NCBI GenBank assembly: GCA_009711825.1
Contig: VEMY01000007.1
Location: 1 to 64,000, forward strand
DNA from: Bacillota bacterium
GTDB taxonomy: Bacteria; Bacillota; Proteinivoracia; UBA4975; VEMY01
DNA length: 64,000 bases
Direction: 5' to 3'
Shown here: positions 23,099 through 25,288 of the stretch, piece after piece
Layout: the number at the start of each line of letters is the position of its first letter
Numbering within the stretch: position 1 is the first letter of the stretch
Position numbers and translations under genes: made by a program
Notes under the pieces: generated by a model
Database searches by the model: none
What the model saw: only the letters and a program-made list of their open reading frames with translations
Told to the model about the DNA's origin: nothing

Positions 23099-23464
23099 AT
23101 GAATAGAACCAGGGCCAAAAAAATGGCTGAAATCGTCAAAGAAGAAGTTAGTGAAATTATCGCTGGAAAGCTGAAAGATCCGCATTTGGGGTTTGTAACC
23201 ATCACCAGTGTTGATGTAACCAATGACCTGCGGTATTGTAAGCTCTATGTCAGCGTCCTGGGTTCAGAAACTGAAAGGACCAATTCTTTCAAGGCTCTGG
23301 AAAAGGCCACTGGTTTTATACGCAGTGAACTTGGCGCCAGAATTCGGGTGCGCCATGTTCCGGAAATTAAGTTTGTTCTGGACCAGTCGGCTTCTCACCA
23401 GGAAAAAATCAATGAACTTCTGCAAAAGTTGCACAGTGGAGCAGAAAATGACCGTTCGGATTGA
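23099..23464 (+). CDS. rbfA: Ribosome-binding factor A
   Basis: Cold-related 30S maturation factor of the KH-like fold. The 121-residue protein shows the family motifs KMAEIVKEEVSEII, DPHLGFVTITSVDVTNDLRY and RHVPEIKFVLDQSA. ATG at 23099 after GGAGGG. Its end overlaps the start of nrnA by 17 bases. Confidence 0.95.
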   Translation: MNRTRAKKMAEIVKEEVSEIIAGKLKDPHLGFVTITSVDVTNDLRYCKLYVSVLGSETERTNSFKALEKATGFIRSELGARIRVRHVPEIKFVLDQSASHQEKINELLQKLHSGAENDRSD

Positions 23465-24419
23465 GGAGATGCAGGCAATCAGGGAACGCCTGCTGCGGTG
23501 TCGTCAGGTATACGTCTTAAGTCACCCTAACCCTGATGGCGACAGCATCGGTTCCACTGTCGGCCTGTGCCGTTTGTTATTGGCTGCCGGAGTGGAGGCA
23601 ATACCGGTTATTCCCCAGCCGGTCCCTGAAAAATTTCTATTTCTTTTGTCAGGACTGCATTGGCTGCCAGGTCCCCTTGACGTGACTGGCAAAGAAGTCG
23701 TGGTTCTTGACAGCAGTGACTGCGCACGACTGGCTGAACACGGCTAGTCGCTATCCGGTACTGACTTTGTGATTAATATCGATCACCATCAAAACAATCA
23801 GCAATTCGGCAATCTTAACTTGATTGACACAACAGCAGCTGCCACCGGTCTGTTGGTTTTTGAACTCTTCGCTGATTTCAATATGTTTGACGTGCCGATT
23901 GCAACGGCGTTGTTCACTGCTCTCTACACCGATACCGGGCGTTTTAGTTATGCCAATACCGACAGCCGCGCGCTGTCGGCCGCTGCCCGCCTGGTTGCTT
24001 TAGGGGCCAATCCTAGTTCTGTTTACCGGGCTGTTTATGAAACAAGAAGTATCGGTTATTATAAGTTTTTGGCTGTGGTTTTGGACAAGATTAGTCTGCA
24101 GTCTGACGGAAGACTGGCAATTTTGGTACTGCCTCAGACCTTAATCCACCAATTTCAACTGCAGCCTTGGGAGTATGATGATTTGATTGACTATCCCCGC
24201 AGCCTTCAAGGTGTGGAGATAGCGGTCGTTGCCAGGGAAGAGGACGATCGGATTCGGGTGTCCTTGCGATCCAAAGGTGATTTTGACGTGTCCAAAATCG
24301 CAGGTGTTTTTGGTGGCGGCGGTCATGTCAATGCTGCCGGAGCCAGCTTGAAACCGCCAATGGACAGTGCCCTAAAACAGTTGGAGAGTTGTTTGCTGAA
24401 GGAGCTCAACGGGCGATGA
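23448..24419 (+). pseudogene. nrnA: DHH-family oligoribonuclease/pAp phosphatase NrnA, interrupted by an amber codon
   Basis: NrnA degrades 2-5 nt RNA and dephosphorylates pAp. The reading frame from ATG 23448 (GGAG six bases upstream) to TGA 24417-24419 would encode about 323 residues, the normal length, but an in-frame TAG at 23745-23747 splits it after about 99 residues (ending CARLAEHG). Sense coding resumes at once in the same frame, with SLSGTDFVINIDHHQNN. Both halves look intact: HPNPDGDSIGS before the stop, the DHH motif just after it, and GGGGHVNAAG in the DHHA1 domain. GTG 23769 could restart but has no Shine-Dalgarno. A recent nonsense mutation, a sequencing error, or readthrough are all possible; one base change from CAG would explain it. 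Confidence 0.85.
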
Positions 24420-25288
24420 ATGGGTTTTTGGCGCTAAACAAACCGGAAGGAATTAGTTCCCACCAGGCAGTGGGCAGAATACGTCGGCTTTGCGGAGTCA
24501 AAAAAGTCGGGCATACTGGTACTTTAGACCCCGCCGCCGGTGGCCTTCTACTTGTTGCCATTGGCAAGGCTACACGGCTCAGTGAGTATTTCCTTGATAG
24601 CACAAAGGCCTACCGGGCGGTTGTTCATTTTGGCTCGGCGACAGATACTTATGACCGGGAGGGCAATGTTCAACGCAGTGTCAGCGATTTTCTGCTCTCG
24701 CGGGCTCAAATAAACGCCGCACTCTCAATGTTTCAAGGGGAAATAATGCAGAAACCACCTGCCGCTTCTGCTCTAAAAGTGCAGGGCAAGCGGGCATACG
24801 AACTATTTCGCTCCGGCCAGACTCCTGATTTACCCCCTCGGAAGGTGACAATCTATGATTTGCAAGTTGTCAGCGCTCCCAAATTGATTAAACCTGAGTC
24901 GCCTCAGCTTGTTCTAGATATTGAGTGTTCCAAAGGCACATATATTCGCTCGCTGGCTAATGATTTGGGGGACGCCGTCAAATGTCCCGCTCATCTCGCC
25001 GGTCTTTTGCGTACCAAAATTGGTAGCATTTCATTGGCACAGGCGGTAGAACTTGACGATTTGGACCGGGAGACGATTCAGGCTAACATGCTGGATATGG
25101 CTGTGGCGGTTACAAACCTTCCTCGATTGAAAGTAGGTGAAACTACCGGGCAACGTATCGCCCATGGTCTGAAGTTTAAAAACGAATCTATCAAGGCCGG
25201 ACCGGTTGCTTTGTTCTGTAATCAGCAGCTGATTGGAATCGGTGATATAGAAAATTATTTGGTAAGGCCGGTTAAAGTTTTGGTTTAG
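24416..25288 (+). CDS. truB: tRNA pseudouridine-55 synthase
   Basis: Makes pseudouridine 55 in the tRNA T-loop. The 290-residue protein begins MNGFLALNKPEGISSHQAV and has catalytic Asp38 in KVGHTGTLDPAAGGLL. The C-terminal part has the KGTYIRSLANDLG motif. ATG at 24416 overlaps the nrnA stop (ATGA) with GGAG at 24401-24404, so it depends on translation of the nrnA distal part or its own Shine-Dalgarno. Confidence 0.96.
   Translation: MNGFLALNKPEGISSHQAVGRIRRLCGVKKVGHTGTLDPAAGGLLLVAIGKATRLSEYFLDSTKAYRAVVHFGSATDTYDREGNVQRSVSDFLLSRAQINAALSMFQGEIMQKPPAASALKVQGKRAYELFRSGQTPDLPPRKVTIYDLQVVSAPKLIKPESPQLVLDIECSKGTYIRSLANDLGDAVKCPAHLAGLLRTKIGSISLAQAVELDDLDRETIQANMLDMAVAVTNLPRLKVGETTGQRIAHGLKFKNESIKAGPVALFCNQQLIGIGDIENYLVRPVKVLV

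Follow-up and report, generated by a model that had tools for sequence, protein, structure and literature searches.

An in-frame amber codon within the DHH domain of nrnA

In the window, the whole 64,000-nucleotide stretch that was analyzed, an nrnA frame (bifunctional oligoribonuclease/PAP phosphatase of the DHH-DHHA1 type, assigned by Pfam, relatives and fold) occupies positions 23448..24419 of the plus strand. It lies between rbfA (23099..23464, plus strand), which overlaps its start, and truB (24416..25288, plus strand), and it overlaps both. Read from the ATG at 23448 to the TGA at 24417-24419, the frame encodes 323 residues with a single internal stop, an amber codon (TAG, 23745..23747, plus strand) that takes the place of residue 100 and was placed by sequence, relatives and a structure model. 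Beyond this codon, the frame contains no other internal stop and no frameshift. The first-pass annotation of this DNA had reported the split, and sequence and Pfam searches together confirmed it.

The TAG separates a proximal fragment of 99 aa (23448..23744, plus strand), carrying DHH motifs I and II, from a distal part (23748..24419, plus strand) with DHH motifs III and IV and the DHHA1 domain. The Pfam DHH domain (PF01368) covers residues 20-158 and spans the TAG, scoring 53.7 bits on the read-through product versus 29 bits on the proximal part alone; DHHA1 (PF02272) covers residues 244-316. Only reading through the TAG brings both domains into a single chain of about 320 aa; uninterrupted translation fails at residue 100. 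The NCBIfam profile NF053633 matched residues 6-302 with 91.7 bits, under its own cut-off of 350, and for the interrupted frame we do not claim the NrnA name at the equivalog level.

The metal site of Bacillus subtilis NrnA consists of H20, D24, D26, D80, H103, H104 and D156 (PMC5593865). By alignment, the equivalents here are H26, D30, D32, D88, H113, H114 and D162, all seven present and all in conserved columns, in line with the intact DHH motifs noted at first. The TAG falls between the fourth and the fifth ligand: H26, D30, D32 and D88 precede it, and H113, H114 and D162 follow. It therefore splits the catalytic DHH domain itself, and neither fragment alone could build the active site.

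An AlphaFold2 model of the read-through protein reached a mean pLDDT of 94.4 and places residue 100 in a predicted loop (residues 97-106) between a helix (92-96) and a strand (107-112), within the ten-residue block of lowest model confidence (pLDDT 80). Sequence and fold matched the NrnA type (the Deinococcus radiodurans RecJ-like protein 8ioo, T. maritima TM1595, Rv2837c, Staphylococcus aureus Pde2 and B. subtilis NrnA), and the TM-scores against solved structures were 0.88 for TM1595 (5o4z), 0.84 for Rv2837c (5jju) and 0.82 for B. subtilis NrnA (5ipp). In domains, length, place in the rbfA-truB operon and the seven ligand positions, the gene resembles the NrnA/Pde2/DhhP family of DHH-DHHA1 nanoRNases and pApA hydrolases; it differs in the TAG inside the DHH domain, which is absent in relatives.

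Conservation of both halves and rarity of such stops

All 60 relatives searched align across the TAG site without a stop there. The closest are seven members of the same order, with 47-51% identity. The sole stop flagged among the 60, a TAA in one relative (G010), appears from the 322-codon open frame of that gene to be the gene end. Relatives with the same two separate nrnA frames, the case singled out beforehand as speaking against an interrupted gene, were looked for and seen in none of the 60. In three relatives, NrnA aligned through the TAG in one HSP each, in the same frame and with more than 90 residues on either side, in agreement with the earlier claim that homology resumes at once. 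The alignment column of residue 100 is variable and lies in a poorly conserved loop; relatives have sense residues there, with codons one substitution from a stop, so a single change would be sufficient to produce the break.

Conserved columns, defined as those conserved in at least 90% of 29 aligned relatives, are all kept by nrnA (44/44), both before the TAG (11/11) and after it (33/33). This suggests that the break is very recent, that it is an error in the sequence, or that it is still bypassed. Since about 88 first and second codon positions in these columns are unchanged, the rule of three limits the neutral divergence since the break to less than about 0.034 substitutions per site.

We screened 1.12 Mb of the genome by tblastn with 707 non-overlapping ORFs of relatives, covering about 103,000 codons. 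Only at position 23745 did same-strand relatives, the three mentioned above, align through a stop with over 90 residues on both flanks, and no second clear mid-domain in-frame stop was found in these 1.12 Mb. The other sites listed by the screen were gene starts, junctions between tandem genes and antisense shadow frames, as judged by position and not individually. As the only clear mid-domain stop in about 103,000 codons, the nrnA TAG is more than a chance occurrence, and the lack of a second one indicates that the assembly is not generally error-ridden; with a suppressor or a poor assembly, more interrupted genes would be expected.

We consider a recent single-codon nonsense mutation in nrnA the probable explanation, by a modest measure. 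It accords with the intact site in all 60 relatives, the full set of conserved columns and the otherwise clean frame, as well as with the near absence of comparable stops and the single substitution needed. On the other hand, loss of NrnA should be costly, given that it was found in every relative searched and that Orn was not detected in the genome, and a draft of 77 contigs may contain base errors. A sequencing or assembly error, in which case 23745 would be a sense codon in the organism and NrnA would be normal, is a serious possibility, albeit one to which we give clearly less than an even chance. The conserved residues kept on both sides of the TAG, the presence of the gene in all relatives, its being the only NrnA of a genome in which Orn was not detected, and the draft state of the assembly are all consistent with such an error, but it must be a substitution, since the frame is kept; there is no homopolymer at the site, and the assembly is otherwise nearly free of such stops.

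Decoding of TAG and translation beyond the stop

Pyrrolysine decoding requires PylS, the biosynthesis genes and a CUA tRNA. In a genome search, the best match to the PylS profile scored 22.6 bits against a cut-off of 178, the best match to PylC 24.4 bits against 248, and MttB had no match, while a positive control, Methanosarcina acetivorans, passed each cut-off. A CUA anticodon was absent among the 55 tRNA matches, whose anticodons were read with ARAGORN; the tRNA search had no dedicated model for tRNA-Pyl, so the absence of CUA rests on the anticodons of these 55 matches. The genome is 99.76% complete (77 contigs; sampled G+C 51.1%). Decoding of TAG 23745 as pyrrolysine, for which nothing speaks other than the codon being TAG, has therefore a negligible probability and is rejected as far as the assembly reaches. 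The likeness to the pyrrolysine proteins MtmB, MtbB and MttB is confined to the in-frame TAG: nrnA is not a methylamine methyltransferase, and neither pyl genes nor an amber-decoding tRNA were found in this genome.

TAG behaves as an ordinary terminator. RF1 and RF2 are both present in the genome, and of the 272 confident ORFs in 764 kb about a quarter (72) have TAG as their stop codon, as does truB; this count had been proposed in the first-pass annotation, as had the searches for pylS and for a suppressor tRNA, both of which came out negative. The absence of a second interruption in 1.12 Mb further argues against general amber recoding. We conclude that there is no evidence for an altered genetic code at the nrnA TAG.

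UGA, by contrast with TAG, is recoded in this genome, as seen from a tRNA-Sec (UCA) among the 55 tRNA matches and from glycine reductase genes with in-frame TGA, which shows that our screens do detect recoding where it is present. A cluster with thioredoxin reductase, thioredoxin and glycine reductase lies at L083:15000-17690 (G000:C1, about 195000-197690) and contains an in-frame TGA in the GrdA-like (CFV*TAAG) and the GrdB-like (TST*GTCTRC) frames. The tRNA-Sec gene is found elsewhere in the genome (L073:1559-1653).

A composition screen of 764 kb had raised the candidate of genome-wide amber recoding, with TAG between 22 of 50 same-frame neighbours versus 26% of ORF ends, and this candidate was rejected. 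The TAG sites of this screen turned out to lie between tandem genes, with the stop overlapping the Shine-Dalgarno of the next gene (TAGGAGGT, seen as '*EV..M'), and no Pfam domain crossed the stops that were tested. The composition screen is blind to nrnA itself, and the relative-based screen was used instead. The over-representation of TAG between same-frame pairs (22/50 vs 72/272 ORF ends; L079, L086, L100, L106, L108 and others) apparently results from TAGGAGGT doubling as stop and Shine-Dalgarno.

The full conservation of both halves and the position of the stop, in a loop tolerating varied residues, would also suit a real TAG that is partly bypassed, by near-cognate readthrough or an unusual suppressor tRNA, with enough full-length NrnA being made. 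We regard this as improbable: none of the 55 tRNA matches has a CUA anticodon, the RNA downstream of the stop folds no more strongly than shuffled sequences (z = -0.18), a second interrupted gene, as predicted by a suppressor, was not seen, and none of the 60 relatives has the same stop. Among the four options originally put forward, a recent nonsense mutation and a sequence or assembly error hence stand, pyrrolysine is rejected, a suppressor tRNA was not found and programmed readthrough is unsupported.

The first in-frame start after the TAG is a GTG at 23769, 22 bases downstream, whose product retains the DHH motif. Reinitiation at this codon could yield a distal part that joins the proximal fragment, an arrangement that would be compatible with a break in a loop. 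However, the GTG has no Shine-Dalgarno (-3.1 kcal/mol against a background median of -3.4, compared with -10.0 for rbfA, -8.4 for truB and -6.5 for nrnA), and the gene is split in none of the 60 relatives; a two-piece NrnA is thus very unlikely, and there are likewise no signs of two independent genes. Taken together, we see little prospect that the TAG is real and fixed with NrnA still being made, by inefficient readthrough or by two assembling chains, as a low-dose or split nanoRNase in a genome where Orn was not detected.

As had been noted, the start codon of truB (ATG 24416) and the nrnA TGA share an ATGA, and translation of the distal nrnA had been suggested to matter for truB. This suggestion is weakened, as truB has its own Shine-Dalgarno (AAGGAG) in the 3' end of nrnA and is probably translated from this ribosome-binding site; its output could be lowered by lost coupling or by Rho-dependent polarity.

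Possible consequences for nanoRNA and c-di-AMP turnover

nrnA is normally a universal gene, whose enzyme clears RNA scraps. According to the preferred reading, the amber codon arose very recently, by a point change in this strain or population. Ribosomes that initiate at 23448 would terminate at 23745 through RF1 and release the 99-residue product, which holds half of the DHH active site. The 223 codons beyond the stop would remain mostly untranslated, and active NrnA would be lost or strongly reduced. A single nonsense change is an ordinary case: as in other recent nonsense pseudogenes, there is one stop, the frame is otherwise intact and intact orthologues exist elsewhere. It differs from these in that nrnA is usually a conserved gene and is here the only NrnA copy.

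S. aureus tolerates losing its NrnA orthologue Pde2, although early growth is impaired and pApA accumulates (PMC5207132), making a real loss of NrnA conceivable here. Diadenylate cyclase is encoded by two genes in this genome, one of 299 aa and one of 369 aa, which by their lengths are CdaA- and DisA-like, and a PgpH-type HD c-di-AMP hydrolase by one. A search for DHH proteins gave four: nrnA itself, a frame of 760 aa whose length is that of a RecJ-like protein, another of 878 aa and a divergent protein of 326 aa. None of the four has the length of GdpP. The divergent protein (C1:208053; L111:1450-2430, G000:C1, about 208000) adjoins murB and has DNDALG and DHH motifs, and no DHHA1 domain was detected in it; we consider it a candidate back-up phosphoesterase.

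Were the stop a sequence error, the finding would amount to no more than a helpful correction of the annotation. A real stop would make this a natural loss of the only NrnA in an organism with two c-di-AMP cyclase genes and PgpH, and with no Orn or GdpP detected. In that case, the clearance of nanoRNA and of pApA, the breakdown product of c-di-AMP, would be left to other enzymes, and the first candidate for this outlet would be the divergent DHH protein.
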